Of a DNA stretch of 64,000 nt, positions 14,033 through 45,904 are shown piece after piece. The stretch lies in contig KL197720.1 in the NCBI GenBank assembly GCA_000697665.1, forward strand, positions 355,083 to 419,082, in the 5' to 3' direction. The position numbers were made by a program, and so were the translations under genes. The notes beneath the pieces are model-generated. The model made no database searches, was not told the DNA's origin, and worked only from the letters and a program-made list of their open reading frames with translations. Numbering within the stretch: the stretch's first letter is position 1; each line of letters starts with the position of its first letter. The DNA is from Jaapia argillacea MUCL 33604. Its lineage: Eukaryota; Basidiomycota; Agaricomycetes; Jaapiales; Jaapiaceae.

Positions 14033-15231
14033 GGTGATATGATATATAGCTGAAAACCTGAAGCCCAGTCTTGGACCTGCTTGCCTCCCAATTTCTTTTG
14101 CATTCGTATCATATCCTCTGTATCACCATACCACGTCTAGGCTATTTGGATCCTGCCCTGTACCTTGAAGCTGTTTATTTTTCGTCTCGACTGGCGCATA
14201 CCCCCACTTTCTCCCCACAGGACCCTATGCGGGTTACATAATCCCAGGTTGGAGCGGAGTTGAGTGTGGTTGTGTATCTCTGTGTTACTTTGTGTATCTG
14301 AATCGATTTGCTTCCGGTGGGTTCTATTCATTTATACTAGCCCCCGGACGACGGAATGATCGTGACACAGCATGTTGTTATCTTTGGACATTTGACCAAA
14401 TGGAGAGGGCCTTTCGTGAGGTTGCCAGGGCTTTGGTGCCAAAGACCTCAAGGCATCTGTGCAGTGTCCAAGGTTCAGATATGCAGGGCATCGCAGTTGT
14501 TGCCTTAAGGTCGCAATGACTTTCTTGCAGTGCAGCACGCAAACGCTATTGTTGTTATCAGCAGTTTGCCGCCTGCCCCGCGCTCAACGGCTCTGTGGTA
14601 AGCGCCCTATGCCCCCGTAGATCGCCACGTGTGTTACTGCCTCATTCTCATCCCCCTCTCGCAGGCTGTCCGAGAATCCTTGTCCTGTTTTCATAGTTCA
14701 AACCTTCTCCGTGAAGCACCCCAGGAGATGTATCACAGATCTGAGCCCTCATCTCACGAACCAGAAGCGTCAATGTGGCAATGTCCATCCTTTCCTTGTC
14801 TTTTCTGGGACAAATACTTCGCTCATCAATTGAACTCCGCGGCCATCAAGTGAGTATTGTTTCTGACTGCTGATGGGATGGACAATTGCAGACCCAAACA
14901 CTCGGCGGAACAATCTGGTCGTGAGGCATCAGAGACAACTTGCTTGATTTGATCATGCCTTGGGCGCCTAACTATCCCTTTTTTAGGCGCTCGGTCTAGA
15001 GATCTCTGCGAGTTGGGGTCCTGGACCCCCGTGACGGCATCTGCACGATCTTCGCAAGTCCTTTCGAGGCAGGTTGCAGAGCAGTGACTTCCACGGGCCC
15101 TGATGACTGCCACTATATAGCTGCAATACGCCGCGGGTCGGAGTGTACCCAGCTCCTTGCAATCCAAGCCTTGCATACTCCTCCCTGTACACCATCCCGA
15201 CCTCTAATTCTACTGGCACTTACCCATCAAT
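14033..15231. other. Intergenic region with TF1 promoter
   Basis: No gene is supported here. The final 120 bases carry a TATA-like CTATATAGC at about 15113-15121, roughly 110 bases before the TF1 start codon, which is a plausible core promoter. Confidence 0.5.
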
Positions 15232-17502
15232 ATGCCTGACACCTCTTCAGCCCCGCGAAGATCTAGTAGTGGCCCGCTTAGATCGACCAAGAAATCCGGA
15301 GCGCCCAAGACGAAAGGCGCGGTGCGCGCTAAGTCTGGCTGCTATACGTGCAGAATCAGACGTAAGGTTAGTTGATATAAATTGATCGCCTCGACCAGTT
15401 TCTCACCGCTCCGTCTCGTGTGGCGCGCATAGAAATGCGACGAACAGATCGACGATCAAGGTTGTTGTGGAACATGCGTCCGCCTGAGGCTTCAGTGCCT
15501 GGGCTTCGGTGCTAAACGTCCAGATTATCTGAAGGTACGCATTGCCTCAGCCTTGCATCGACTCTCGTTGACATGACCACTTTCAGGATGGGAAGCAGGT
15601 AGCAACTTATCGTGACAAGATCAAGACTTTTTTGGCTTCAAATGGCATGATCAAGGGTCATGCAAACAGTGGCAGCCGCGCCGCAGAACAGGAAGCCAAT
15701 ATCCTCCGTCTCACGGAGGATAGCGATACCTCCTCGGCACCCAGCCCTACCCCATCGCTCTCCTCGTGCTCCGACGACGCGAGGCATGGCAGCGTTCACA
15801 CACTTTCGTATGTCCGTGACCAAGAGCCCCAATACACCTTGGAGTCTGTTGAGGACGAGCCGGAGTATGGGTATCCTGGTTGGTGTTATGTATTTTCGTC
15901 CACTTTAGAATTGATAGTAACCATTACGCAGCAGGATTTAAACCTCATGCCCAACAGCTATACAAGACCCCCTCACAATTCCATGGCATCTTGAATGATT
16001 ACCCTATGTCTTTCCCGTCCTCTAGTTTACCTCTTTCCCCTGCTGCGTGTAAGAACGGTTACTTTTATTGAGTGTATTTGTATGTACAGTACTCAACGGC
16101 CTTTTTGTTTGTAGGGCCTAATTCATCTACCTTACCTCCCTCCCAAACGCCGACCAACGCAAGTTCCTTCGGACCTTCATATTATATCTCACCGAACGAT
16201 GTCGACGACGACGCATACAATTCGGTGCCAAACGATGAATACCTTCGCATCGAGACACCACTCACCGTTAGTTGGTTTTCTCAAGTACCCGCGAGCAAAA
16301 ACCAATACGTGGTTCACTATCTCAACCATGTCCTGCCCAGACAGTTTCTCCTCGCCGATCACGGAACGATACGCTACATAATTTCTGACATGTTGCACCG
16401 TACGCCCTCGGCTTGTGAAGCGGCGATTCTGCTTGCATCCCTGCACCAGGAACGACTGCGCGACTTTACATTTAACGGTCATGGGGGGTATCCCGACGAT
16501 ACGGAACAGTTTTCCAGCCTCGTCTTCAAGGTTCAGAATGCTCTGGCATCCAGCTCTCAGCAACGATCCGAGGGCGATGTTATGGCCGGTCTCATTGTCG
16601 TATCAAGCTACCTGTTCACCGGAGGGAGGGGTCGATGGCAGGAATTTCTAGGTGTCGCCCGTCAGTGGGTTGGCAACCTCCTGGAGAACGGTGGACACCG
16701 GATCCCTCGAGCTGTCGTAGCCGAATGCACGGAGAGTACGCTCTTTGTCGTCAAAACAACGTTATGGTTCGACGTCCTCGCATCCATCACCGAGCGTCGA
16801 CCCCCCGCCCTCATGAACGTCTTCCGAGACTTGTTTGACCCCCAGGGAGCCTATATCGAGGATCCCTATCCTGTCTTCCCCGGATTCTCCATGTTGACAC
16901 CGATGGGCTGCGAGAATTCCGTGGTTTTGGGATTGGCAGAGACTTCGTACCTTGCATGGTGGAAGGAAAACGAGATAAATCACCGGCGTCTCAGCATATT
17001 TGAACTTTACGACCGGGCGAAGGACATCGAACTCCGTTATCTTGGCCCTCCTCAGCCTGCCGCCCCATCGTATGGAACTCCGGAAGAAGACCTTCGCCAT
17101 CGCACATCGGACATATTTCGTGCCTCGGCGCGGGTTTTCCTCTACTCCATTCTATCCAACGATTCACCACATAGCCAGGAAGTCAAGTCGGCGGTTCAAG
17201 AGACCGTTTCGTGCTTGAAACTCGTACCTCACGACGACCCCAAAATGACCGACGCCGTCTTGAGAAGCGTCGTGTTCAGCATCTGCGTCGCCGGTTGTCT
17301 CACCGACGACCCATCTCACCAGCGATACTTCCTCGACCGTCTGCGCGGTTTCAAAGACTCGGAGTCGGCAATTGGAAATGCCCGTAGCGTTCGGGACGTA
17401 TTGACGACGGTGTGGAAGCGAAGGCGCGAGAGCGGTGAACTCGTGGAATGGCGTAAAGTCATGCATGAAATGGGTCCCGAAAAGCTGTTGCTCCTTGTAT
17501 GA
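15232..17502 (+). CDS. Zn2Cys6 transcription factor TF1
   Basis: Five exons (15232-15366, 15433-15534, 15587-15878, 15935-16048, 16115-17502) give 676 residues. A basic N-terminal tail precedes the binuclear zinc cluster at ~38-70 (CYTCRIRRKKC ... CCGTCVRLRLQC, all six cysteines present), split by intron 1 after RIRRK. A Ser-rich linker leads into a ~450-residue regulatory region of the fungal_trans_2 type, with Agaricomycete-typical stretches such as LAETSYLAWWKENE and CVAGCLTDDPSHQRYFL, ending EKLLLLV. These nuclear proteins bind CGG-containing DNA and often control metabolism or transport genes. TF1 resembles the C-terminal half of the fusion gene at 36604-40941 throughout, including 3' flanking DNA. 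Its direct target is unknown. Confidence 0.92.
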
Positions 17503-18610
17503 TTTAGGATATTGTATTCGTATTCGATCTGGCTGCATTTTCCGATTCCCAGTATCAATCCCGTTTTCGCATTCGCAATTTCTCGTACTACTACCTCCTC
17601 ACGTGTACTATATAATCATTCACACCATTCTGTTCTGCTTGTTTCTGACTCGTGCCACCCACGATGCCAAGTTGTACTTATTTTCCTAGTCATGTAGAAT
17701 TTCCGGCGGTGTAACCGCACTGGATTGCGTGTCTTTTCGGAGGGTATTTCGTGGTCGAAAAGCTATGCTTCATCGTGGCAGGTAGGCTCAACACGCTGAA
17801 CTGCAGTGTAACTTCGAATTCTAGCCACAATGGCAAAGCGTTTACTCTCAATATCCAGCTCCCCCATCTGATAAGCAGCTGGTCGTGCGACACAGGCCTA
17901 GGACGTTATAGTCACCTCTGCAAGCCTTCGAAGTTCGCAGGCTGAGCTCGGAGAAGCCTCACCTAGTCCTTCTCCTCATCCCCATAAGGTTATTATGTAA
18001 TATTCAGTGCTTTGCTCACCGCCACTATGTCCACACCTCCGGATATGCTGTGCTCCAAATCCGACGGTATCGAACAATATAATCAAGTGACTGGGTCCGC
18101 AAGTCGCCTGGTCGCACCAGAAGGAAGTAGTCGCGGGTGAAAGCTCCTAGTATACGGTCTCGACGGAGGCACATTATCACCGTTTCTCTTCGTGTCGCTT
18201 CAATCTCAACCCCGATGAGAGAGGACTTCTGCATCATCAACTTAGGCGCTGATACCACAACCGGAAATCTTTCCGGCAAATAGACGCTCGGTGACGCTTT
18301 ATTCTGGCCGGGAAGGCTATCCCTGCTGTGCTATCTGAGGTCGTTAGGCGCTCTGGAATTCCCAGATGACGACCTTGAGGACTCCATCACGCAGTCTGAC
18401 CAATTGTGAGCACCTTTTAGTTTAAATCCGTCTAAACTTCCGGTGATTTCTGCGGCCCCTGTATTTCACCGCATCTTATGCCCATTTTCAGAACGCGACG
18501 CGCCTGTTCCGACTTGCCCTTGGTAGACTAAAGAGTCATTGACCTGATTTTATCGACTGTGGCTCAGCCACTTTGTCTGATTACTGCTGTACACACCTTG
18601 TTCCACTGCC
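17503..18610. other. Intergenic between TF1 and TF2
   Basis: The first ~150 bases are TF1 3' flank, matched again after the fusion gene (to about 41040). The rest shows no supported gene, only short unrelated open frames. Confidence 0.55.
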
Positions 18611-21008
18611 ATGACATCTCGAGGGGGAGGCGCCTCCACCAGCAGCAGCCCTTCACCATCTTCTGCCTATTCCCTAGACATGTCTCCTGCTTCTCGCACT
18701 TCAGCCCTCCATGTTTCTGGAGGATCAGATGAGGGAGAACCATCATCCTCTCGACTTCGTAGAAATTCCGATCGACCAGATTTGACACGTTCGCACTCAA
18801 GTGGGAAAGGGGGATGCTGGTTTGTTACGTTTTAGCCCTTCGGTATTTGCAGGCATTTATCTCCTGACTTTGCTCCACAGGACGTGTAGGACACGGCGAA
18901 AGGTGACGAAGTTTTCCACATCCAATACATCCTCATTGTTGACTATTCGGCTACAGAAATGCGACGAGCAAAGAGTCGGTGACTCGTGTCAAACATGTCT
19001 CCGCCTCAAAATACAGTGTCTTGGATGGGGTCCCAAGCCTGATTGTGTAAAAGTGAAGGCTGTTTCGCACCATCACAGAAATTTGATCTCATCATGACTT
19101 CACCCAGGATAAAGCGGCTCAAGAGGTCTACAAGTCCCAGATTAAATCCCAGTTGACTAGGCAGGGAATGATCCGGGGTGTGCCTAAGCTTATACAAAGT
19201 CCTCAACCCCCCTCTTCTTCCTCTCACTCTCGACAGTCCAACGTTGCCACCCATAGCCCTATTCCTTCTGGACTCCCCATGAATAACGAATATCACTCCG
19301 ATTACGAACAACAACATCAACCCTCACCACAACCGATGGGTAGTTGGCTTTCCATACTCCTTGTCTCACAGCTGACAAATTTTTCAGCAGGCCCCAGCGA
19401 ATACCCCGACGATCTTTCCCGCCAGTCGAGTCACCATCCCTCTCCACTACCCCCAGCACCACCTTCCCTCGTACCCCAAGGGGGCCAGTATCAACATTAT
19501 CCTGCACTCGGCCTCGACCCCGTCCCCGAAGCCCACGCGCCTGCGGAACTTGCTCATGACCACAGCTCTGTTGAAGGCGAACACGTCATCTACTATTTTC
19601 AACATGTCCAAAAGCTGCAATATCCTTTCTCCGATTCCGCCCTCACAGATGCACTTTACCGTGTAAGCTTTGCTAAATCTTCTTTGGCTACCAGCTTGTA
19701 ACACGAGTATCTGGTTCTTATAGATGGTAGTCCAACAGCCGCGAGGGGCTGTCACGAATGCTATATGTGCCTTGGCCAGTCTCCACTATACACTCAGCCA
19801 TGCATCACAAGATCCAGATCTCGCCGAAGATCCTGATATTTCTATGGCAAACCAGTGGTACGATCAGGCTTATATCCAACTAGCGACATCAAAGCATTTC
19901 CACGGCCACTACACGGAGAGTGATGCGGTTGCAGCTCTCCACCTCGTCAACTACTCCCTCCTTGGAGGCGGCTCTATCGATTGGGTGCCAATGCTCGAGG
20001 TCGCCAAAGAATGGCTCTCCCACACCGGTTTGGTCCAGGACGAAAACCCCACTCTTCGTTTCCTCGGTATGAGCTATTCCGAACAGTTTGTGGCGAGGGT
20101 CACATTGGTGAGTATTTCATGACAATGCACACATTTCCCGGCCTAATATCGTCGATAGTGGATGGACGTCGTCTCAAGCGTCACTCTGACGCGGCCGCCA
20201 GTATACCTTGCCCTCTACCGTCGAATGTTTACTCCTGACCCCACCTGGACTGGGTCTATCGGGGGTGGGCAAGGGCTGAGGATGGATATCCTCACAGGCT
20301 GTCCTGACGAAGTTCTTCTGTCCATCGCCGAGACTTCCAACTTGGCGTCTTGGAAGGCACATGAGAAAGCTCGCGGAACCCTAAGTGTGCGAGAGCTTGT
20401 CCATCGAGGCAGACTCATCGAACAAGATTTGCGTCGCGCGCGGCCTCGCCTCAACTTGGATTCTCACCAACACTTGGAGTCTCGGATATCAACGCCCGAC
20501 TCTCACGCAAGCTTTGCGACTGGAGTTTCTTCCTTCGAATCCCCAGCACCGATGCCTGCGCATGACGCCCGACGCGCTGTAGTCACCATTTTCTACGAAA
20601 CCGCGATTCTCTATCTTAACACCGTAATTAGCGACTTCCATCCGGGTACGTCCAACTTTCGCTCTCTTCAACTTTGTGAAAAGTAGTCTCACCAGGCCAT
20701 CTGTAGGTGTGCCAGAAATTTCCGCATCTGTTGATGCGCTTGCGCAGCTATTCAACCAAATGGATGCCTCTGCGGCCGGACGATCGATAATTCTTCCGCT
20801 TTGTCTTGCTGGGTGTTTGATGACCAGCGTTACTCACCGGGAGATATTGGCGAGCACATTTACTGTTCACCAAGACTCAGGAATGGGGTTTGTCGGCCAG
20901 GCGCGGACGTTAGTCGAAGCGGTGTGGCATCGGAGAGACACGACGGGGGAAGCTGTCGACTGGCGGGATATGATGAGAACCCTTGAACACAATTTGCTGC
21001 TGGTATGA
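18611..21008 (+). CDS. Zn2Cys6 transcription factor TF2
   Basis: Eight exons (18611-18819, 18881-18902, 18957-19052, 19108-19339, 19388-19662, 19724-20107, 20159-20645, 20707-21008) give 668 residues. The zinc cluster CWTCRTRRKKC ... CQTCLRLKIQC is assembled from three exons, one of only 22 nt; all six cysteines are present. The C-terminal half is the same Agaricomycete regulatory type as TF1 (LAETSNLASWKAHE, LCLAGCLMTSVTHREIL, ending HNLLLV) but much more diverged, so TF1 and TF2 are old paralogues. The acceptor at 19387 is a CAGCAG tandem site, giving one optional codon. It probably acts as a nuclear DNA-binding regulator; targets cannot be inferred. Confidence 0.9.
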
Positions 21009-28400: not shown

Positions 28401-30742
28401 CCGGCAAAGTAAGCAACGAATTCCAAACTTTTGTAGTGTCCAGACTTAACAGAGTCACAGAGCTCACTTTTGGAAATCATATCGGGACAACTTGCTCCTG
28501 GACTTGGGACGCGATTCGAGGTTTCGGGTCATGTCTTGTTCAATGATAGTCCCGCCTCGGACGCGGCTCGAGGCCAAGTTGCCTTTGTCCAACAGAGCGA
28601 CAACTATCTCTTACCTGCTCTCACTGTATGTGATTTTCCGTGCCTAGAACGGCCCGTGGGATTCGCTGAACAGATCCTCAGATACGGGAAACATTGCACT
28701 ACGCTGCTGAATTGCAGCTTAGGGGTCTCACGAAGAAAGAGAAGATTCAACGAGCTGAAGAAGTGCTCCGCTTAATGGGCCTGAGACCTGTCGCGGACAA
28801 CATCGTCGGCGGGGAGGCGAGTACTTCGATTGAATCTCATATGGAGCCCATCTTACAGTATACTATATACAGACTGTCAAAGGTATCAGTGGTGGCGAGA
28901 AACGCCGCCTCTCTCTAGCCGTCCAGCTCGTCTCCGACCCCTCCGTTCTCATTTGTGACGAGCCCACGAGTGGATTGGATGCATTCACTGCCCTCAGTAT
29001 TATGGATACTCTCCAGGCGATCGCTGCTTCCGGCCGAACCGTCATTGCTACAGTATGAAACCACCCTCTTGGAGCTTCCTCTGCGTTCTTACCACTTGCC
29101 TCTCAGGTTCATCAACCCCGGAGCGAAATATGGGCAACCTCATTCGACGACGTCGTTCTTTTGTCCGGCGGGAAGACAGTCTATACGGGACCAAAAGATA
29201 TGCTTCTGCCGAACCTCGAGGCTGCAGGTGAAATCGCGCCATTGCATTACAACCCCACCGATTTCGCTTTGGACCTCATCTCCATTGACCGAAGGGATGA
29301 AGTTGTTAGGAAGCAGACAACGGACAGACTTCGGAAGCTTGTGAGCTTTTGGGAGTCAGATAACGGGTTGAAGAAGCTTGAGGAAGATCACGAAGCTGAG
29401 GTTGCGGAGGGACAAGGGATTGGGATGGACGAAATCAAGGGGAGGACGATCGTTTCTGCTCTACCCATCGTGCTCGGCCGGAGCTGGAAGAACTTGAGGA
29501 GACAGCAAGACATTTTCATTGCTCGCCTCGCCAATCCACCGTTCTTGGTCCTCTTATTTTGGCTTTTCTTCCTCCGATTATCCAAAGGGCCATCTGGTGC
29601 TCAAGACCGAGTTGGCTTACTGATGGAGAATAGTGCGATACCTTTCGTCGGTGAGACAAGTTCTTCATATGAAGCGTCTTTTGGCTGGGTCTCACATGCC
29701 GGTCGTCTTAGGAATGCTTGCATCCATTGCTATCTTCCCCTCGGAGCGAGATGCGTTCTATCGGTTTGCATCTGAAGTCTTCTTCGCCCAACCTCGTTGC
29801 TAATTCGATCTTTCCAGGGAATACAAGAACCCCGCTTCTCGGTACAGTGCAGCTACGTTTGTTGTTTCGTATAGCATTCAGGAAATACCCATGCAACTTA
29901 TGGCCGCCATGGTCCGTGCTGCTTCGAATTGCCCTCGTTTCACCTACCAACTTGCCTTTCATTCAGCTGTATTCCATTGTGATGGTCGGTGGGATGGGCC
30001 TCCAACTGAATGCACGAATATATTTTGAATTCGTCATTGGCATCTTTGGTTTACTCAACTTTGGCGAGAGTGTTGGAGTGAGTATTGTCGAATCTGTTTA
30101 TGGAGATTATCCCTGAATGTTTTCGTCCCACAGATTATATTCTCGAGTAGGTTCTGGTGTATACCATAGTTGACGCACGCTAAAATCTTGATTGCAAAGG
30201 CTGGGTAATCAACGGAGGGCTCTCTGTGTCCTTGGTTTCCTCGGCCCTGACCATTCTGGCTCAAATATGCGGTATCATCTCTGTAACCATCCCCAAATGG
30301 CTGCGCATTATTGCGTGGGGAAGTGCGCTGACGTATCAGTCGTTCGTGGTGTTCCTCCTGTCGACCGTGTTTGACGAACTCACTCGTAGCGGTTACAGGC
30401 GTGTAGCGTTTATTAACGAGTTTTCTGGCCTCAAGTTTACCTGTACAGACACACAGATTGCTTCTGGAGAATGTCTCGCGGGTGCGTCGTTCGTTGATGA
30501 TCCTCCGTCGCAATCTGTTTGACCTTTTCGGTTTGGGTTGTAGTGACGGGAGACCAGATGATTGAAACGTTTGGTTTCAAGGATACGAACACTGGTCAGC
30601 GACGTTCGGTTAGCGTTTCCTGCCACTATGCTGATGCTACTACCGTTTCGCAGCGAAGTTCACTGGATTGCTCCTGGTACTGATTACAGTCTATCGTTTG
30701 CTGGCTTATTTTGCTGTTCGGGGGAGGGTTGCCCTATTGTGA
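25451..30742 (+). CDS. Full-size ABCG transporter (YOL075C-like, NBD-TMD-NBD-TMD)
   Basis: I find 25 exons whose phases all close, giving 1,318 residues, near the ~1,290 of yeast YOL075C. NBD1: Walker A GSSGSGKTT (25841-25930, part on a 12-nt exon), signature SGGERRRLS, Walker B VLLLDEPTTGLDA. TMD1 follows (FYRPPETPAG, VFDRERE, then helices to TRWMSPYFYGFRW). NBD2: Walker A GPSGAGKSSLL, signature SGGEKRRLS, Walker B VLICDEPTSGLDA; TMD2 ends LLVLITVYRLLAYFAV. Both nucleotide sites look complete. Such pumps export lipids or drugs across the plasma or vacuolar membrane. Tiny exons are 25841-25852 and 30134-30146. Intron 15 (28817-28872) uses a GC donor. The least certain splice is 27150-27207. 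A truncated copy of the last exons lies at 34051-34676. Confidence 0.9.
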
Positions 30743-31508
30743 TGGGCCATATTCCGCGTGTGCTTGAATAGACAGATCTTGCACTTATGCCACCAAAAGC
30801 CAATTATCTTTATCGGTAGGGTCGCAAGCACCTAGTCCTCGACTCTGATTCATTTACACCCATAATACGGTAGGCAGATTGGTCGCCGCGGCGATGGGCC
30901 CTGGACATGTGGGTCGCGGCTATGATGAGTCCGTGGAACCTACATCCATGATACAACCAATGGGGTGATCTTCGAAGAGATCTCTCTATCAGAGAACAGA
31001 ACTCGAAATATCCTCAGACGAGCTCGTATTTGTGATCTACAACAAGTTGTAGCCATCCATGGTAGACGATGTGATCTCATCAAATCTGCAGTCGGCGAGG
31101 TAAGCCCAACACATGCCGTCCTCCAAGTCCCATGCCTCGAGAGTCTGATCATAGATGCAATCGAGTCGAGATGCCTCTACGAGGGTGGGCAGATCTCACT
31201 CCGGATCGTCCGTAAAGCAGCGTGTGCCTCGAATCCACCACATTTACCCTAGAAAATCACCGAACACAAACGACGCCGCGTTCTCGTACCTAAATGACCG
31301 TCTCCACAGTTGTATCGCCAACGGGCTTGAACTGCAGGCCAAGAACGCCACCTGGCAGGTCATGTTTCCCATGGGTACTCTGGTTCCCGCTCATGGACAT
31401 TGTTCCGTAAATGCTCAGACCTACGGCACTTCATTATGAATAGACAGTGTATCGTTTGCCGTAGTTCTCTTGCTGCCTGTAAGATGGTGGAGACTAGGAG
31501 ACGGCATA
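30743..31508. other. Spacer between ABCG and F-box A, copy A of a duplicated block
   Basis: From about 30848 onward the sequence matches 41041 onward, with shared ATTCATTTACACCCAT and later GACCGTCT and CATGTTTCCCATGGGT. It contains the 3' flank of F-box A and no supported gene. Position 31309 keeps the uninterrupted TA that is the target of the MITE in the other copy. Confidence 0.75.
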
Positions 31509-33100
31509 TCAAATCGATGGCAAGTCTAATTGGAGACCTGCAGCGATGTGTCGACTCAGGCGAGACCTGAGGTATTCACAACACTCCGCGCTGACGGCCT
31601 CGGATGTGATAGCGACGTGCGTGAGAGAGGTAGAAGGCTGCGGGTCATCGGGTTCCTCAAACTCCGAAGGTGGAAGCGAACAGCGTGAAGCTATCATGTC
31701 CGCAAAAGAATCTTGCAAGATCGAAAAGTTGGAAGATCCACTGAAAGAGAAGGTATTGATGGATAACTTTCGCAATCTCGGGAGGACGAAGAGGATTCCT
31801 TCACAGGTCATATGTGGACCCCAGAGGGCGTGGAATAGCTCCTCTCCTGGAGTCCAAGCGTCGTCTTCATAGTAGAGATCGAGATGGAGGCTGGTAAGGG
31901 AGGGGAGAAGGTGGAGTAAACTGATGATATCATTGAAAGGTACAAGCCAAAGATCCAGGGCAAGGCTCTCGAGGGTGCAGTGGGATTGGTTTAAGCAAGT
32001 CTCAATGGCATAGAGTGTGAGAGGGCAATTGTCAGATTCTGAGACGTATGGTGGCCCATAGCTAAAACCGACCAGCTTCGGGGCGACAAGTCGCTCAAGA
32101 AGGAGATAATCACGGTGACTCGAATCTAAGAACAAAAAATGGAGTTCTGGGAGTACGATCGGCTTGGTGCCGATGGTTGGAACGGGAAGAGAGTTGTCGG
32201 TGTCATCGATGTAGAGCCAGCAGTGCCTAAGCTCAACACATTGTTGAAGAATTTCGATACACGAAGTGAGCGATAATTGAGCTTGATTATCCTCTTCCGT
32301 GTCTCCGAGGCGAAGATGAGTCAGATGTGAGAAGGGGAAAGGTAAGGTGGAAGGGTGCCAACACCCAGCCAAAGTCAGCTCCCGTAGATTAGGAGCTCGG
32401 AAGGCTTTGATGTCGGAGAGGGTTGCTTTGGGAGGGATGTCCTCTCGGGAATATGAAGGGATGGCGAATGATTCCAGCATAGGGGAGTGATGGGCGATAA
32501 CTCGAATAAGGGGGGCCATATCGTCCAACGTGGGGTTAGACAGTGTGACGTGTCGGAAGCGATGGACGTGGGGTAGAAATAGATCGAGGATAGATGCGCT
32601 TGTGCACTTGCTCCAGTCGATATGAAGCGATAGAGGCGCTCCAGTAGAGCGGGTAAGGAGGATCTGTAAGTGTGCTCTGATGAGAGCTAACCGCTCATCG
32701 CTTGGAAAATTCGGTGCCAAATATATTCTCGACCAGAGCCCGGGTGCCCCCAAGGTAACATTCCACCAATGCCTGCAAACCGCGTAGAGCAAAAAGGGCT
32801 GCGGAAAGCCCTCGTCGTCTAAACAATTCACGAAGACTTCGGTCAAAAGTTCTGGAGGAAGGCGGTGGATTGGCGGGATGGTTGGCTCGGTGTGCATCGC
32901 ACCACAGCGGGAGTCACTTTGTTCAAAGCACAGTGTTTGCATCTGCTTCTTCAAGCCAGAGACCTCAGCGTCGCACGTGGACTCATCCATGCCACCACTG
33001 ATGACCTCGACATGGAGTAATGATTCTCCGCCTATAAAGTCCCATCAGTTTTGGTTAGGAGGAACACATCTCATCACTCACAAGCTCCGAAAGCCATTCC
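30848..33100. repeat. Segmental duplication, copy A (spacer + F-box A)
   Basis: This block aligns along its length with 41041-43530. Both copies have the same order, a spacer then a minus-strand F-box gene of identical length, and copy B additionally carries a 380-bp MITE. The right flank continues with scattered similarity into the GBD/FH3 upstream region. Confidence 0.9.
31509..33097 (-). CDS. F-box protein A (F-box plus LRR-like region)
   Basis: Two exons: a 16-nt first exon (33082-33097, MAFGA) and 31509-33031, giving 512 residues. After a short N-terminal helix with EVSGLKKQM, the F-box is at ~55-105 (IHRLPPELLTEVFVNC ... CRHWWNVTLGAPGLWSRI). The rest is irregular leucine-rich repeat-like sequence (ESFAIPSYS, LTHLRLGDT, LHFLFLDSS, LTSLHLDLY), as in many Agaricomycete F-box proteins. 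It probably recruits a substrate to an SCF ubiquitin ligase through Skp1. The first-exon choice is supported because F-box B shows the same 16-nt exon, donor and acceptor. The substrate is unknown; the sequence differs from F-box B over much of its length. Confidence 0.88.
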
Positions 33101-34050: not shown

Positions 34051-34676
34051 TGTATACCCTAGTTGACGCACGCTTAAACCTTGATTGCCCAGGCTGGGTA
34101 ATCAACGGAGGGCTCTCTGTCCTTGGTTTCCTCAGCCCTGACCATTCCGGCTCAAATATGCGGTATCATTTCTGTAACCATCCTCAAATGGCTGCGAGTT
34201 ATCGCGTGGGGAAGTGCGCTCACGTATCAGTCGTTCGTGGTGTTCCTCCTATCGACCGTATTTGACGAACTCACGCATTGTGGTTACAGGCGTGTAGCGT
34301 TTATTAACGAGTTTTCTGGCCTCAAGTTTACCTGTACGGACGCACAGGTCGCGGATGGATTGTTCGTTGATGATTCTCCGTCGCAATCTGTTTGACCTTT
34401 TTGGTTTGGATTGTAGTGGCCGGAGAGCAGATGATTGAGACATTTGGTTTCAAAGATACGAATACTGGTCAATGGAGGTCGGTTAACTTTTCCTGTCACT
34501 CTGCTGATTAGGTGCTACCATTTCACAGCGAAGTTCAGTGGATTGCTCCTGGTACTGATTATAGTCTATCGTTGGCTGGCTTATTTTGCTGTTCGGGGAA
34601 GGGTTGCCCTATTATGATGGGCCATTTTCCGCGTGTACTTGATGAACAGATCGTGCAACCATGCCCCCAAAAGCCA
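34051..34676 (+). pseudogene. Truncated second copy of the ABCG transporter 3' end
   Basis: This segment matches 30152 to about 30790: the end of an intron, exons 22-25 and a little 3' flank (GGGTAATCAACGGAGGGCTC, CGTAGCGTTTATTAACGAG and CTCCTGGTACTGATTA are shared). It lacks both nucleotide-binding domains. A 2-bp difference in the counterpart of exon 22 shifts its frame, and the exon 23 region is shortened. It begins directly at the GBD/FH3 fragment and marks the boundary of the tandem duplication. Confidence 0.88.
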
Positions 34677-36603: not shown

Positions 36604-39600
36604 ATGCCTGCTCAAATCGACTCTGCGTCTTGGGGTACCGAAATAGGGGATCCGTCTCTCAGGTTCCCGAGTCCTGTCTACCCAGTGAGTTTGTGGCCCT
36701 GATGCTTTCCTCCACCATTTGACCCCTGGACGAAAGTCTCTGTCTCGTAAGCTTCTGGTCAAACTGGTTTCTTTGCATCCGACACATGAGGACAGTGATG
36801 TCGCCAGGTGAGTTTCAAATCTTGTTCAAATGGCTGCCCTAGCCTCCTGACCATGTCTCTCATACCAGGATCACTCACGGACTAGTCAGGTGGCTTTCTC
36901 GCCTGGCAAGCATTAAGAAGGATGGACTTGGCCTACTTTGTGCGAGTGAGGAGTTTCGGATATATTGCTGTGAAGTATGTGTTTTCTCCCCAGCTGTTTT
37001 CTATCCTCACACCTCTACCAGTCTCTCTCAGTGTTTGGTTTCCATGAACCTTCTCTTCAACACATTTTGATAAGGGATCAAAGTCCCATCGCGGAACTCC
37101 TTCAGAGAGTTCTGATGTCTGTCACACTCGTGGAGGATGTCCTGAATCTCGACGACGATCATGCGGCGAAATTCTTAATCATCCTGCAGCGGGTATGGCC
37201 TCTGAAAATATGACTTCAGTGTGTATTTTACCCTCCCCGCGCTCCTCAGGCACTGGATAACACTTCGGGCTCACCTGGGTCCCCCTTCAACGAGCGCTCC
37301 CGTCAAACCGCATATCGAACTATCATCCGCCTCTCGCAGAGGTGTCAGAAGCTTCCGCCATCACTTTTCATTGAAGGCACCTCTTTGACGTCTGGTTTAA
37401 TAATTGGGGGAGGTTTCGCTGATATATACGAAGGCCGATACCGTGGTCAAACTGTCGCAATAAAACGCATGAGGATGCTCCATGGAGGTGCAGCTGAGAT
37501 AGTACGGGTACGAAATGTAAGTCTCGGATACTACCCAGGTGCCGTCGTTATCACCGTTTTGCTGCTCACACTACGGTCGAAAGGTGCTCTTCCGGGAAGC
37601 TCTAGTCTGGCAACGCTTGAAGGATCCCTGTATTCTCCCATTCATTGGCATCGATGCGGACCTCTTCGCTGGCCAATTTTGTCTGATATCCCCATGGATG
37701 CCCAACGGCTGTATCTTGACCTACCCTGAGAAGAATAGACCGCTAACTATTGACATAGAATCCCTGGTTGGTTCTGAACATTCACAGCTAGGCAGTTTAC
37801 TTATCCTATCGCAGCTGACTGGCATTGGTCACGGCCTCGTGTATCTTCACTCGGAGAATGTGATCCATGGTGATCTACGTGGGGTGGGTCTTTGCTCTCG
37901 CCTTATCCACAAGAAACTCACCAGTATCCCAGGCCAACGTATTCATGGATAACCACGGCTGTCCTTTACTCGCTGATTTTGGCTTGGCGTACTATGCGGA
38001 TGCCACCAGAACTTCAACGACCTCCGGTTCTGTCAGATGGATGGCACCTGAACTTCTCCTACCCGACAAGTTTGGTCTGAACTTCCAGAGAACATATGCA
38101 ACTGACGTTTACGCTTTCGGCTGTGTTTGCTTAGAGGTAAGATCGACACCTCCGTGGACACCACTGACGGACCTCAGTTAACCTAGTGTGCTTCAGGTCT
38201 ACACAAGGAGGCACCCGTTTCCAGAAATCAAGACTGACCCCGAGTTAATCATAAAGATCAACAATTCGAGCCTGCGACCAACTAGACCATCAGTCGGGGA
38301 ATGTCAGGGAGTTGAGATTGCGGACGAGTGGTGGGCCCTCATCCTCTCGTGTCTCAAGGAGGATAGTAGCGAAAGACCTCACGAAATTCAATTGAGAGGC
38401 TTTTTCAGCACGCAAAAGTATAAGCGGCGCTTTTCCGCGGTCACTTCCAGAGGTGTTTTAGAGACAGATCATTCTAAAGACATCCAGGATCCCCCCCTTG
38501 CACACGCAAGCTCTCAGGAGTATCATATCACTCCTGGCGAAGGACTAACCCTTGGCGATGAATGGCTCAATGCCCGTAGATCGGAATCACTATCCCCTTC
38601 AGTCTACTACAGTGCCATTGGCAGCCGCGCCGCAGAACAGGAAGCCAATATCCTCCGTCTCACGGAGGACAGCGATACCTTCTCGGTACCCAGCCCGCTG
38701 TCCTCGTGCTCCGATGACTCGATCCATGGCAGCGTTCACACACTTTCATATGTCCGCGACCAAGAACCCGAATACACCGTGCGCGCTAATTCTGGCTGCT
38801 TTACGTGCAGAATCAGACGTAAGGTTAGTTGATATCAATTGATCGCCTCGACCAGTTGCTCACCGCTACGTCTCGTGTGGCACGCATAGAAATGCGACGA
38901 ACAGATCGACGATCAAGGTTGTTGTGGAACATGCGTCCGCCTGAGGCTTCAATGCCTTGGCTTCGGTGCTAAACTTCCAGATTATCTGAAGGTACGCATT
39001 GCCTCAGCTTTGCATCGACTCTCGTTGACATGACCACTCTCAGGATGGGAAGCAGGTAGCAACCTACCGTGATAAGATCAAGACTTTCTTGGCATCAAAT
39101 GGTATGATCAGGGGTCATGCAAACAGCGGCAGCCGCGTCGCTGAACAGGAAGCCAATATCCTCCGTCTCACGGAGGATAGCGATACCTCCTCGGCACCCA
39201 GCCCTACCCCATCGCTCTCCTCGTGCTCCGACGACGCGAGGCATGGCAGCGTTCACACACTTTCGCATGTCCGTGACCAAGAGCCCCAATACACCTTGGA
39301 GTCTGTTGAGGACGAGCCGGAGTATGGGTATCCTGGTTGGTGTTATGTATTTTCGTCCGCTTTAGAATTGATAGTAACCATTACGCGGCAGGATTTAAAC
39401 CTCATGCCCAACAGCTATACAAGACCCCCTCACAATTCCATGGCATCTTGAATGATTACCCTATGTCTTTCCCGTCCTCTAGTTTACCTCTTTCCCCTGC
39501 TGCTTGTAAGAACGGTTACTTTTATTGAGTGTATTTGTATGTACAGTACTCAACGGCCTTTTTGTTTGTAGGGCCTAATCCATCTACCGTACCTCCCTCC

Positions 39601-40941
39601 CAACCGCCGACCAACGCAAGTTCCTTCGGATCTTCATATTATATCTCACCGAACGATGTCGACGACGACGCATACAATTCGGTGCCAAACGATGAATACA
39701 TTCACATCGAGACCGTTAGTTGGTTTCCTCGGGTACCCGCGGGCGACGAATACGTGGTTCACTATCTCAACCACCTCCTGCCCAGACAGTTTCTCCTCGC
39801 CGATCACGGAACGATACACTACATAATGTATGACATGTTGCACCGTACGCCCTCGGCTCGCTCAGCGGTGATTCTGCTTGCATTCCTGTACCAGGAACGG
39901 CTACGCGACTTTAAATTTAACGGTCATGGGGGGTATCCCGACGATACGGAAATTTTTACCAGTCTCGTCGTCAATGTCCAAAATGCTCTGGCATCCAGCT
40001 CTCAACAACGATCCGAGGGCGATGCTATGGCCGGTCTCATTGTCGTATCATGCTGCTTGTTCACCGGAGGGAGGGGTCGTTGGCAGGAATTTCTAGGCGT
40101 TGCCCGTCAGTGGGTTGGCAACCTCCTAGAGAACAGTGGACATCGGATCCCTCGAGCTGTCGTAGCCGATTGCACGGAGAGCACGCTCTTTGTCGTCAAA
40201 ACAACGTTATGGTTCGACGTCCTCGCATCCATCACCGAGCTTCAACCCCCCGCCCTCATGAACACCTTCCGAGACTTGTTTGACCCCCAGGGAGCCTATG
40301 TCGAGGATCCCTATCCTGTCTTCCCCGGATTGTCCATGTTGACACCGATGGGCTGCGAGAATCTCGTGGTTTTGGGATTGGCAGAGACTTCAAATCTTGC
40401 ATGGTGGAAGGAAAACGAGATAAATCATCGGCGTCTCAGCATGTTTGAACTTTACGACCGGGCGAAGGACATCGAACTCCGTTATCTTGGCCCTCCTCAG
40501 CCTTCCCCCCCATCGTATGGAACTCCGGATGAAGACCTTCGCCATCGCGTATCGGACATATTTCGTGCCTCGGCGCGTGTCTTACTCTTCTCTATTCTGC
40601 ACTACGATTCGCCACACAGCCAGGAAGTCAAGTTGGCGGTCGAAGAGACCGTGTCATGCTTGAAACTCGTACCTCACGACGAACCCAAAATGATCAACCG
40701 CGCGCTGCCATGCGTCGCGTTCAGTATCTGCGTCGCCGGTTGTCTCACCGATGACCCATCTCACCAGCGATACTTCCTCGACCGTCTGCGCGGTTTCAAA
40801 GACTCGGCGATTGGAAATACCCGTAGCGTTCGGGACGTATTGGAGACGGTGTGGAAGCGAAGGCGCGAGAGTGGTGAACGCGTGGCATGGCGTGAAGTCA
40901 TGCATGAAATGGGTCCTGAAAAGCTGTTGCTCCTTGTATGA
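36604..40941 (+). CDS. Protein kinase fused to a Zn2Cys6 transcription factor (TF3)
   Basis: Twelve exons (36604-36684, 36737-36807, 36869-36974, 37022-37192, 37250-37516, 37584-37883, 37933-38136, 38197-38823, 38890-38991, 39044-39335, 39392-39505, 39572-40941) close in frame: 1,234 residues. The kinase domain is ~190-450: Gly loop IGGGFADIYEG, Lys215 in VAIKRM, catalytic HGDLRGAN (Asp329, Asn334), DFG at 347, SGSVRWMAPELL, DVYAFGC. It looks active and TKL-type. Exon 8 runs from the kinase C-lobe with no stop through a Ser-rich linker into CFTCRIRRK. The spliced cluster keeps all six cysteines (~600-632), followed by the complete TF1-like regulatory region. The linker (38620-38778) repeats the segment after the cluster (39128-39295). 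A signalling kinase tethered to DNA is the implied function; no such family is known to me. Confidence 0.85.
38620..38778 (+). repeat. Linker copy 1 (before the zinc cluster) of an internal duplication
   Basis: It encodes GSRAAEQEANILRLTEDSDT to RDQEPEYT and matches 39128-39295, which encodes the same segment after the zinc cluster. In TF1 the segment occurs once (about 15670-15839). Its downstream edge joins zinc-cluster DNA at ACCGTGCGCGCTAA. Confidence 0.88.
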
Positions 40942-41040
40942 TTTAGGATTCCCAGTATCAACCTTTTTTTCGCATTCCCGTACCACCACCTCCTCACGTG
41001 TACTATAATCATTCACACCATTCTGTTCTGCTCGTTTCTG
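38790..41040 (+). repeat. TF1-like duplicated segment (zinc cluster to 3' flank)
   Basis: This aligns with about 15333-17650 across exons, introns and the 3' flank (CACGTGTACTAT and ATTCACACCATTCTGTTCTG in both). Intron positions and lengths are nearly the same, so the copy was made at DNA level, not through RNA. The TF1 N-terminal tail and first-exon start were not carried over. Confidence 0.92.
39128..39295 (+). repeat. Linker copy 2 (after the zinc cluster) of an internal duplication
   Basis: This is the copy in the position found in TF1. It is slightly longer than copy 1, retaining TPSLSSCSDD where copy 1 is shortened. Confidence 0.85.
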
Positions 41041-41361
41041 ATTCATTTACACCCATACGGTAGGCAGATTTGAGCCTGTATTCGTGATCTGCAAGAAGTG
41101 GCAGTCATCCATGCTAGACGACGTGAGGTCATCAAATCTGTCATCTAAGCAGTCGACGAGTTTAAGCCCAACACACGCCGTCCTCCAAGTCCCATGCCTC
41201 GAGAGTCTGATCGAGTCGAGGTGCCTCTGTGAGGGTGGGGCATATCTCACTCCGGATCGTCCGTCAAGGCTGCATGTCACTCGAATTCACGTTTACCCTG
41301 GCAAATCACCGAACACAAATGACACCTCGTTCTCGGACCTGAATGACCGTCTACAGCTGTA

Positions 41362-41741
41362 CTGTATCGTCACGACCAAAGCGGCGGTCACATGTCACAA
41401 ATGCTCGGCCGACGCCGGATTTTGGCTCGTGTCCACTGTCACAACCGCCCCCGCCGCTTGTGACAGTTATTCCAAAAATGGAAATAACCTAAACTTTTCG
41501 TCCCTGCGGGGCTCTGGGGGCAGAAAACGGCCTGAAAAGTCCAATAAACCTCAAAACGCCGTTGTGTCGTTGGAGACTCTTCTGTAGCGCGCCTGCGGCG
41601 CTACTTTTGGTCATGTCGGACCCACATCCCGGCCGCTTTTGACCCCTCTGTCCGGTGTCACAGACCTCCCCGCCGCTCATCCCCAAAGCGGCGGGCCTGT
41701 CCGGTGTCACAACCCCCGCCGGATTGGTCGTGACGATACAG
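41362..41741. mobile_element. 380-bp MITE, Tc1/mariner-like, TA target duplication
   Basis: The ends are CTGTATCGTCACGACCAA and, inverted, CTGTATCGTCACGACCAA; similarity goes on into CGGCGG. TA flanks each side (41360-41361, 41742-41743). The interior is GC-rich with repeated GGTGTCACA blocks and no coding capacity. The other copy of the duplicated spacer has the empty site CAGTTGTATCGCCAA at about 31304-31318, with a single TA. So the element moved in after the duplication, or was lost precisely from copy A, which is less likely. Confidence 0.92.
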
Positions 41742-41937
41742 TATCGCCAATGGGCTTGGGCTGCGCGCCAAGAATGCCACCTGATAGGTCATGTTTCCCA
41801 TGGGTACTCTGGTTCCTGCTCATGGATATTGTTCCAGACATGCTCAGCCCTACAACACTTCATTATGAATAGTGAGTGTATCGTTTGCCGTAGTTCTCTT
41901 GCAGCCTGTAAGATAGTGGAGACTAGGAGCCAGCGAA

Positions 41938-43526
41938 TCAAATTATTGGTAAGTCTAATTGAAGACCTGCAGCAATGTGTCGACTCAGGCGAGACCTGAG
42001 GTATTCACAACACTCCGCGCTGACGGCCTCGGACGTGATAGCGACGTGTGTGAGAGAGGTAGAAGGCTGCAAGGTGTCGGGCTCCTCAAACTCCGAAGGT
42101 GGAAGCGAACAGCGTGAAGCTATAATGTCCGCAAAAGAATCTTCCAAGATCGAAAAGTCGGAAGATCCACTGAGGCAGAAGGTATTAATGGATAACTTCC
42201 GCAATATCGGGAGGAGGAGGATGCCTTCACAGGGTGTATGTGGACCCCAGAGGGCGTGGGATAGCTCCTCTCCTAGAGTCCAAGCGTCGTCTTCATAGTA
42301 GAGATCGATATGGAGGCTGGTAAGGGAGGGGAGAAGTCGGAGTAAACTGATGATATCATTGAAAGGTACAAGCCAAAGATCCAGGGCAAGGCTCTCGAGG
42401 GTGCAGTGGGATTGGTTTAAACAAGTCTCGATGGCACGGAGTGCGAAGGGGCACTTTTCATCTTCTGGGAAATATGGTGGCCCATAACTGAAATCGACCA
42501 GCTTCGGGGCGACAAGTTGCTCAAGAAGGAGATAATCACGGTAACTCCAATCTAAGAGCAGGAAACGGAGTTCTGGGAGTACGATCGGTTTGTTGTTAAT
42601 GGTTGGAATTGTAAGAGAATTGTCGGTAGCGTCGATGTAGAGCCAGCAGTGCGTAAGCTCAGCACATTGGCGAAGAATTTCGATACATGAAGTGAACGAT
42701 AATTGAGCTTGAGTATTCGCTACCACATCTCCGAGGCGAAGATGAGTCAGATGCGACCAGGGGAAAAATAAGGTGGAAGGGTGCCAACACCCAGCCAAAG
42801 TCACCTCCCGTAGACTAGGAGCGAGGAAGGCTTTGATGTCGGAGAGGGTCGTTTTGGGAGAGATGTCCTCCCGGGAATATGAAGGGATGGCGAATGATTC
42901 CAGCATAGGGGAGTGATTGGCGATAGCTCGAATAAAGGGGGCGATATCGTCCAATGTGGGGTTCGAAAGTTTCACGTGTCTGAAGCGATGGGCGTGGGGT
43001 AGAAATAGATCGAGGAGAGATGCCATTGCGCACTTGCTGAAGTCGATATGAAGTGATAGAGGAGCTCCGGCAGAGCGTGTAAGGAGGATCTGCACGTGTG
43101 CTCTAATGAGAGCTAATCGCTCACTGCTTGGAAAATTCGGTGTCAAATATATTCTCGACCAGAGCCTGGGTGCCCCCAAGGTAACATTCCGCCAATGCCT
43201 GCAAACCGCGTAGAGCAAAAAGGGCTGCGGAGAGCCCTCGTCGTCTAAACAATTCAGGAAGACTTCGGTCAAAAGTTCTGGGGGAAGGCGATGGATTGGC
43301 GGGATGGTTGGATCGGTGTGCATTGCATCGCAGTGGGAGGCAGTTTGTTCAACGCACAGAGTTTGCATTTGCTTCTTCAAATCAGAGACCTCGGCGTCGC
43401 AGGCGGACTCATCCGTGCTACCACTGCCAATGACCTCGACATGGAGTAATGATTCTCCGCCTATAAAGCCCCGTCAGTGTTGGTCAGGAGGAGCACATCC
43501 CACCACTCACGGGCTCGGAAAGCCAT
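41938..43526 (-). CDS. F-box protein B (paralogue of F-box A)
   Basis: Two exons: 16-nt first exon 43511-43526 (MAFRA) and 41938-43460, again 512 residues. The F-box (IHRLPPELLTEVFLNCLDDE ... CRHWRNVTLGAPRLWSRI) and leucine-rich remainder follow the A copy nearly residue for residue. Clear differences occur in the middle (for example DVVANTQAQLSF against DTEEDNQAQLSL) and in the N-terminal linker, which is two residues different in layout but not in total length. Both copies are intact, which suggests selection on both since duplication. It probably acts as a substrate adaptor of an SCF ubiquitin ligase; the substrate is unknown. Confidence 0.88.
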
Positions 43527-43774
43527 TCCCTGTTGCGAGTAGACAATCGAAGGAGAAAAGGGGCTCTTTTTCATTATCATATCTTTGCTTTTACGTAACT
43601 CCCGCGATCGCGTGACCGTCGCGTCGCAAAGTCGAACCGTGGACAAACCGCGAGCAGCCAATCAGAGGCTGAGTAGGCACCTGACACCGTCGCACTGAAC
43701 TGTTGCAGGAACTCAGCTCGAACTTGCATTGTCTTTCCCAACTCACTTTCTCTTCGCTCACGACTCTAACGACA

Positions 43775-45904
43775 ATGTTCAAAGGAATTCTTCCCTCCAA
43801 AAGAATATCTTCATCCGACTTTACCATCGTCTCTCCCCAAGATCCCCCAACTGGCAAGGAAAATCACCCTGCTCACGAATCCCAAAAGAGTTCCAATGCT
43901 ACCAGTACTAAGCGCCAGAGAAACCAACCCCGCGCAGGGAAGGACCAGCCGATGGAAGTCATCGGTACCAACCAGGCGTTTGACAAACTTCTCGTGAGTG
44001 GCCGTTGAGGATTGTTGGTACAGCTCAGGCTCAGTGGTGTTGATTTGGTAGGATGATCTCCAAATCCCATCGACTTTACGGCCAAAACTCGCCACCATGG
44101 AATCCTCCGTCAAAGCTGCGATGTTGAAATCCTCACAGACACTGGCTATCAAGCCGCCCGGATCACCTCCCACTCTCCGAAGAACCCGTAGCGACGAGTC
44201 TATCGAATCACCACGCCCGCCGAAGTTCTACTTGGGTCAAGAACACCCTCGCGCACCGACTCCGTCTGGTCGAACTCGTACTCCTGATATCGGTTTAGTC
44301 CACGGCACATCACCGCTGTCCAGCACTTCTGGTTCTTCCGGGGCACATACTCGGGGACGATCCATGGACAAACCTCGTGGCCAAGCACCGCCGCAAACGA
44401 GTAGCGACTTTGGCACGACAAAGTCGAAGAAGGAGAAGGGCACTCTGAAGAACCTTGGTCCGGGCGTCTTTTGTGGTATGCTCCAGAGTACTTCCAGCTC
44501 TGAGTTAGATGTGGAGTTCGTCAAGAAGCTGAGACTCTGTCTTCGTAATGAACCGGCTGGGTATGTCCACCGTCTTCTATACACTTGTGCATTCCCGAAC
44601 CGTCTGCTCTTTCCTAGGTGGTCTCAGGATTTCCTGAGAGAGGGTGGTTATACAGCCCTTCTCCAGCGACTGAACGAAATCTTGGAGATCGAGTGGAGGT
44701 AAGTCACGTCCCTAGCCAGCCAAACCACCAGAGATCTTATGAATGTTTCTCTCCTCCGTTTCCAGGGAGGAACAACACGACGACCAATTACTTCACGAAT
44801 TATTACGCTGCTTCAAAGCACTCTCAACTTCCTCAATAGGCTGCTTCGCTCTCCGGAGCTCATGCCCAACACCCTTCGCTCAACTCGTTTCCCTTTTATA
44901 TTCCGACAAGAAACCAGGAGACGTAGCAACGCGGCAACTCATCGTCGAGTTGCTCCTCATTCTCTTCGAATTATACCCTCCATCCTCTCTTCCCAATACC
45001 ACCAACCAAACCCTAGGCGCCAGACGCTACGAACCATGGGAAACTACCACCTCCCTACCTTCAACCCTCATAACCCTTCCTGCCCCACATAGCACCCTCT
45101 ACTCCCTCCTCCGCGCTCTCCTCCTAACACCCGCTCCTCCCCCATCCGAATGCCCCTCTAACCCCATCTCACCTCACGCATTCATCGAATCCTTACACTT
45201 ACCAAGGATATACAAGACGTATTTGCAAGAGCTCAGTGACGTTTGTAGAGATTATTTTTGGGTGTTTTGTCATTCCAGTAATGGGGTTTGGAGTTTGGCG
45301 GATACGGATGAAGGGAGGGTTGAGAGACCTAGAGCTCCTGGGGGTATGACCGGTGGTGTAGAGTTTGAGGCTATGGGTTATATGGTGATTTTTGGTTTCT
45401 CTTGGTTTCTAGTAGACGTTTAGGCTGAATGGTGTTTGGATTGATAGACTATGCACTTCAAGCTGATCAATGCATTGGGCAAAGCAGCAGCAGATCTAAA
45501 TCTATCCAAGGACCAAGAACTCTCTGCCCATCGATTCCATACCGACCTATTCCTCTCCGGCTTTGAACGCGTAATCTTGGCAAGTTGTCTCATCTCTTGA
45601 CGTCGGATCTCCGCTCACCATCGTCTCCTTGGAGTAGATTGCACGAAAAGCCTCAACGGCTTATTACCCAACGTTGCACCTCGAGATCGCTCGATACATC
45701 TCCCTTGCTGGACAAGCGGGGTACGAGCTTCCATGGAGTATATCAAGGATGATCGGGCCTCCTCCTGCAGCCATGTGTAAACCTGGTCGTTCCCCAAAGA
45801 CGCCTGCGCAAGTCCAAACCCCGAGGAGTTCACCTACGAAGAAGGGAGTAGCGAAACCGGTGTTACCGTCGCCGATGAAAGTGGAGCCTATTAAGATGAT
45901 GTGA
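43775..45904 (+). CDS. Formin-type GBD/FH3 domain protein lacking FH2
   Basis: Six exons (43775-43993, 44052-44560, 44618-44698, 44766-45384, 45448-45579, 45638-45904) give 608 residues. A Ser/Pro/Arg-rich N-terminus (TLRRTRSDESIESP) precedes an armadillo-like GBD/FH3 region from ~residue 195 to ~520. Recognisable blocks are LDVEFVKKLRLCLRNEPAGW, EGGYTALLQRLNEILEIEWR, LLHELLRCFKALSTSSIGC and QLIVELLLILFELYP. The tail (PRSSPTKKGVAKPVLPSPMK) is basic. There is no FH1 or FH2 domain, so it does not polymerise actin itself. Rho-GTPase binding at sites of polarised growth is inferred from the family. Intron 5 (45580-45637) is GC-AG with donor GCAAGT. A broken copy of its 5' end lies at 33799-34050. 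Confidence 0.85.

Follow-up and report, generated by a model that had tools for sequence, protein, structure and literature searches.

A putative kinase and zinc-cluster transcription factor fusion in Jaapia argillacea, with signs of origin by duplication of a local transcription factor gene

We analysed a window of 64,000 nucleotides from Jaapia argillacea MUCL 33604 (assembly GCA_000697665.1, contig KL197720.1, positions 355,083 to 419,082 of the forward strand); all coordinates below are those of this window. On its plus strand, at 36604-40941, lies a gene whose single reading frame runs from a protein kinase into a Zn2Cys6 zinc cluster and a Fungal_trans_2 domain. Each part has known fungal families to which it belongs, and the chimera is real at the sequence level. 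The transcription factor (TF) half with its 3′ flank (38779-41044, plus strand) is a 91.4% DNA copy of 15322-17651, the site of a stand-alone factor, called TF-A here. We give a probability of about 0.6 to the reading that this is a young chimeric gene encoding one real single-protein fusion, and we read the chimera as the work of segmental duplication.

Rebuilding the gene exon by exon returned the model proposed in an earlier note on this DNA: 12 exons in one frame encoding 1234 residues, with all 11 introns (47-67 bp) ending in GT...AG. Exon 8 (38197-38823) has no stop through the kinase C-lobe, the tail that follows it, a linker and half of the zinc cluster, and no choice of splice site is involved in the join, as that note had also pointed out. 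The order along the protein is kinase, tail, displaced post-cluster segment (the linker), cluster, post-cluster segment and Fungal_trans_2, with both joins (tail to linker and linker to cluster) in frame. When random sequences were drawn from a first-order Markov model trained on the window, 0.8% of 3000 stayed open in one frame over 351 nucleotides.

The kinase tail (38383-38615, plus strand), which is stop-free and without a DNA match elsewhere in the window, is coding-like in the kinase frame, with a codon-usage score of +4.9 against -10.7 and -17.0 in the other frames. Training was done on other genes of the window, namely TF-A, its paralogue TF-B and an F-box-like open reading frame (ORF), 1857 codons in all. 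An earlier training set that included two long ORFs without a Pfam match gave the tail a score of the same sign. The linker scored +7.6 against -0.7 and -2.9, a value biased by the presence of its source in the training gene TF-A; the tail score is unbiased.

The kinase region spans residues 144-462 (exons 5-7 and the first part of exon 8; 37250-38382, plus strand) and matches the Pfam protein kinase profile over residues 197-462 (E 6e-28). Active eukaryotic protein kinases are marked by a glycine loop, the VAIK lysine, an alpha-C glutamate, the catalytic aspartate and asparagine, DFG and APE. All were found here, as GGGFADIYEG at 196, K215, E237 (by motif), D329, N334, D347-F-G and A-P-E after M369, and kinase activity is predicted from them. 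Lys215, Asp329, Asn334 and DFG (Asp347) are located where the earlier note had placed them. The arginine of the HRD motif is replaced by glycine (HGD). Among solved structures, B-Raf chains match its sequence best (best E 4.4e-18, query residues 1-541). In the portion of PMC3937382 available to us, the three tyrosine-kinase motifs are DL(R/A)A(A/R)N, XP(I/V)(K/R)W(T/M)APE and GXR(M/L); judged by the first two, which are replaced here by DLRGAN and GSVRWMAPE, the protein does not qualify as a true tyrosine kinase. In a tblastn search with the whole fusion protein, the kinase part matched nowhere in the window but at its own locus, chance-level matches (E at least 5) aside, and no parent gene of the kinase was found by this search for relatives of the protein.

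Upstream of the kinase, residues 1-143 (exons 1-4 with their introns; 36604-37249, plus strand) contain no Pfam domain, and the exact start codon is uncertain. Exons 1-4 were placed at 36604-36684, 36737-36807, 36869-36974 and 37022-37192 on the plus strand. Another acceptor for exon 4 was rejected, as it breaks the frame, which the CAG at 37019-37021 restores.

The zinc cluster (residues 601-631; 38779-38991, plus strand) is split between RRK and KCDE by a 66-bp intron; TF-A has the same one, and the modelled TF-B has an intron at the same place. The Zn2Cys6 pattern is C-x2-C-x6-C-x5-12-C-x2-C-x6-8-C. Cysteines 601, 604, 611, 621, 624 and 631 conform to it as C-x2-C-x6-C-x9-C-x2-C-x6-C, with an extra Cys620. 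The cluster had been described as complete; this stands for the spacing, with the qualification that the Pfam Zn_clus profile gives residues 600-631 18.6 bits, under the cut-off of 21. The shortfall is common to the parent, because TF-A scores only 19.0 bits and likewise falls under the cut-off. The regulatory region that the earlier note had placed after the cluster was identified as Fungal_trans_2 (PF11951). It occupies residues 841-1228 in exon 12, which also holds the stop codon (39572-40941, plus strand), and scores 129.7 bits (E 1.7e-37; profile positions 4-380 of 384), passing the cut-off of 21.

The parent of the TF half exists as a separate gene. TF-A (15232-17502, plus strand), 23 kb from the fusion, has 5 exons encoding 676 residues, its own ATG, a 30-residue N-terminus and a TATATA at 15114. 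TF-B (18611-21008, plus strand; 8 exons in the model, 668 residues) is a more distant stand-alone paralogue, and neither gene has a kinase match. The two adjoin in the same orientation as a small local zinc-cluster array, to which the TF half of the fusion belongs. We take the fusion to be the derived state, because neither of the other two TF copies found in the window carries a kinase, and copying probably ran from TF-A to the fusion. As a Zn2Cys6/Fungal_trans_2 factor, TF-A resembles the fusion in its cluster, intron positions, post-cluster segment and Fungal_trans_2 domain. Unlike TF-A, the fusion has neither the start nor the first 30 residues of the factor, carries a kinase where these would be, and repeats the post-cluster segment before the cluster. 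The copy begins at the Val codon of VRA(N/K)SGC, which the first 30 codons of the parent precede; by DNA comparison within the window, it lacks the sequence upstream of the parent gene as well as the parent's start codon and its first 30 codons.

The 55-residue linker (38616-38781, plus strand) is itself a displaced post-cluster segment of the TF, in the same frame and with one 9-bp in-frame gap. It is 86.9% identical to TF-A at 15667-15841 and 85.4% identical to the fusion's own 39128-39298. Its source sits after the cluster in TF-A, whereas the linker sits before the cluster in the fusion. A post-cluster copy followed by a cluster is the order that would remain if about 520 bp within the TF had been duplicated in tandem (15322-15841 compared with 38616-38781). 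No clear microhomology was seen by eye at the printed junction. We suggest that a 5′-truncated copy of the local zinc-cluster/Fungal_trans_2 factor, carrying this displaced segment of its own, would have landed in frame behind a kinase gene. The proposal that the gene stands for a family or architecture of its own gives way to a single chimera, since the TF half has its match in a separate gene with a start codon of its own and no kinase. It looks like a local young chimera, not a family.

An artefact of assembly, in which two unlinked loci were joined near 38616, would also produce such a gene. Misjoins happen at repeat edges, and a repeated sequence has its edge at 38616. Divergence between the repeat copies is 8.6-14.6%, however, far above what confuses assemblers, and the join is in frame with coding-like sequence on both sides. 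We regard a misjoin as very improbable.

Two separate transcripts, one for a kinase that ends within exon 8 or beyond it and one for a TF that restarts upstream of the cluster, would fit the general expectation that adjacent fungal genes are separate, and the words CCAAT (38645) and ATTGG (38617) could be counted in their favour. The starts available speak against this arrangement. There is no in-frame Met from residue 370 to 663, the whole cluster included, and exon 8 has no in-frame ATG. From ATGs in the exon 8 region, 27 routes lead into the cluster through one intron of 40-299 bp, and none has a usable donor, the best scoring only -1.2 bits; the enumeration was confined to single-intron routes from within this region. 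The narrower set with introns of 40-129 bp holds 18 routes, again with a best donor of -1.2 bits. For comparison, the donors of all 15 introns of the fusion and TF-A score at least 3.2 bits, each left out of training. The copy also lacks the upstream DNA and first 30 codons of the parent. A TF starting anew before 38790, which the earlier note had named as a refuting scenario, is disfavoured by these results, and we consider separate transcripts improbable.

TATA-type and AATAAA/ATTAAA words were not found in 38197-38900; this says little, because the gene's own 5′ and 3′ flanks are equally without them. A bacterial sigma-70 scan of 38190-38830 returned 2 promoter-like sites where 0.2 were expected, along with 0 terminators, and was given no weight, the model being bacterial. 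With the start and 30 codons lost, no Met between 370 and 663, no usable donor and a tail that is coding in the kinase frame, the cluster is hardly translatable except from the kinase. The alternatives that stay live are a fused protein and an unused tail.

The divergence between the fusion and TF-A bears on this choice. Over 640 codons, we counted 123 nucleotide differences, with a synonymous divergence (dS) of 0.112, a nonsynonymous divergence (dN) of 0.054 and a dN/dS of 0.48. The TF half contains no stop, while the same changes placed at random gave a mean of 3.7 stops and left 1.8% of 1000 trials stop-free. The four shared introns are equal in length (66, 52, 56 and 66 bp), with 8 differences in 240. 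At the DNA level, gaps of 9, 3 and 6 bp all fall in the last exon and all keep the frame; the other three wholly shared exons are equal in length. There are 67 amino-acid replacements as compared to 84 ± 4.7 in 2000 stop-free random placements, none of which went as low. The replacements are also conservative, with a mean BLOSUM62 of -0.06 against -0.67 ± 0.17 at random (P 0.0005). As outgroup, TF-B agrees with the fusion at 10 of the 60 differing sites where it is aligned, with TF-A at 11 and with neither at 39; decay does not appear lopsided, because the first two counts are nearly equal. The aligned Fungal_trans_2 domain scores 151.5 bits in the parent and 133.4 in the fusion, 18.1 less, while four random versions carrying all 94 changes scored 86-104 bits (a loss of 47-65), each below the fusion.

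The linker is more diverged (54 codons, dS 0.21, dN 0.059, ratio 0.28), with changes that tend to be synonymous (Fisher P 0.022). This weakly suggests that it has been coding at its present site since roughly the time when the copies separated. Our reading is that the TF half has evolved under a constraint somewhat looser than in the parent.

Several observations weigh against a fusion maintained as one protein. A dN/dS of 0.48 is not low, and a comparison of two copies is compatible with one of them being relaxed. The ratio also varies along the protein. The cluster has 0.42, from 2 synonymous and 3 other changes, exon 10 has 0.10 and the Fungal_trans_2 region 0.51, and residues 741-840 reach 1.65, with 2 synonymous versus 11 other changes. 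All three gaps are on the fusion's side, PF11951 scores 129.7 bits in the fusion versus 149.2 in TF-A, and the summed BLOSUM score against TF-B favours the parent over the fusion by 20. Random versions with half of the changes (47) scored 113-139 bits, and one of the four lost less than the fusion had. Third positions account for 8 of the 14 linker changes, at a P of 0.058 only. Divergence is patchy, with 3 of 171 nucleotides changed in the post-cluster repeat, 0 of 66 in the last shared intron and 94 of 1188 in the Fungal_trans_2 region, which suggests gene conversion, a process able to refresh a dead copy. The constraint dates from the TF duplication, and the fusion may have arisen later. 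Finally, no relative was found among viral contigs (searched with the 68-residue kinase exon 7) or among prokaryote genomes (searched with the whole protein), in scans that set out from six short peptide patterns and detect close relatives only.

Such points would be explained if the kinase were the working gene and the TF copy a degenerating tail, whether translated or untranslated, that its recency and gene conversion have so far kept open. The lower Fungal_trans_2 score, the dN/dS values (overall, in the Fungal_trans_2 region and in residues 741-840), the one-sided gaps and the patchy divergence are what that explanation has in its favour. Set against them are the lack of any stop or frameshift, the unchanged lengths of the shared introns, the few and conservative replacements, and the about equal retention of the TF-B residue by fusion and parent. 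We judge a degenerating tail unlikely, and we prefer the reading of a young gene encoding a single fused protein.

For that protein, the likely route would be from the kinase promoter to one mRNA and one 1234-residue product, in which the kinase would replace the short N-terminus of the TF. Having no start of its own, the TF half would arise solely as a C-terminal extension of the kinase. About 140 residues separate the end of the kinase domain from the DNA-binding module, which this domain might phosphorylate in cis, or with which it might ride to the target promoters of the parent; kinase input would thereby gate transcription. The cluster region differs from that of the parent at three residues in 49 compared codons, and the fusion may for this reason recognise the target sites of the parent. 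Our best reading is that the kinase may steer its own zinc-cluster module. That the gene is a functional one-protein switch, in which a Raf-like kinase and a zinc-cluster DNA-binding module were joined so recently that parent, linker source and breakpoints are still legible, and were selected for coupling kinase input to promoter choice, is a tentative proposal drawn from the sequence and less likely than not. Kinases normally meet transcription factors by diffusion and docking. The fusion and the unfused TF-A form a matched pair, in which an almost identical DNA-binding module occurs once with a kinase and once alone, and would show a step toward such architectures, in which a truncated duplication lost the start codon and the linker was self-derived. 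Even if the protein is unmade or decaying, the locus is a clean case of a chimera formed, as we read it, by segmental duplication, and one that could be called as a new domain architecture.

The earlier note knew of no described family with this order. This agrees with the literature as far as our search reached: among the matches listed (titles and abstract starts, with few subscription journals), there was no recognisable description of a kinase with a zinc cluster or fungal TF in this order. It has to be qualified by one survey of 30 fungal kinomes, which in the portion available to us reports a Fungal_trans domain once among the predicted kinases (PMC2838846). That case is alike in combining a fungal TF regulatory domain with a kinase, and unlike in that its TF domain model differs by name and that the main text of the survey has no word beginning with "zinc". 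Combinations of the zinc cluster with other DNA-binding domains are described in PMC5415576, where the main text has no word beginning with "kinase".

For the kinase half, the FslK kinases and the TKL kinases offer the nearest comparison. According to the available part of PMC3937382, FslK kinases are a lineage beside the tyrosine kinases that is expanded in Agaricomycetes, with extra domains in only 16 of 241. Our kinase is like them in its full set of catalytic residues, in DLRGAN and SVRWMAPE replacing two tyrosine-kinase motifs and in its best structure match to B-Raf.

For the manner of fusion, rice provides a parallel. In the part of PMC9199173 available to us, duplication followed by fusion is the main pattern among rice fusion genes, and Type II fusions are those with one detectable parent. 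The present gene is similar to Type II in that a duplicated copy of one parent was placed beside and fused with another gene. The rice study had expression data and whole genomes, whereas the kinase parent was sought here in the window alone. Segmental duplication has likewise been named a possible route to gene fusions (PMC2557144, as available in part).

Outside the fungi, we noted the Arabidopsis NLR-kinase-WRKY fusion. We take this protein to be At4g12020/WRKY19. As described in the accessible part of PMC4759884, it is alike in that a single polypeptide holds a kinase together with a DNA-binding domain, and an analogue only; it is a plant immune receptor with an NLR, has no zinc cluster and is of unrelated origin.

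Next to the fusion on its 3′ side lies another duplicated block (41072-43967, no strand assigned) with an F-box-like gene, whose source at 31020-34050 matches it in pieces that are 75-90% identical; because of this block, the fusion is seen to sit in a mosaic of segmental duplications. The F-box-like gene is present as two frames of 511 codons from stop to stop, at 31512-33044 and 41941-43473, both on the minus strand. Their Pfam scores (17.4 and 23.8) are both under the cut-off of 24.3, and the two copies, within the block common to 31-34 kb and 41-44 kb, differ by a dS of 0.172 and a dN of 0.085. The 31-34 kb block lies between the two copies of a direct repeat (about 640 bp, 87%; 30158-30802 and 34051-34676), and no such repeat was matched beside the 41-44 kb copy by DNA comparison within the window. 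In addition, an element of about 380 bp was mapped to 41362-41741, with inverted ends at 41360-41387 and 41716-41743 (28-bp arms, 93%) and TA on both sides. The duplicate block lacks it at the corresponding site near 31312, and it looks like a small non-autonomous DNA transposon, probably inserted after the block duplication.

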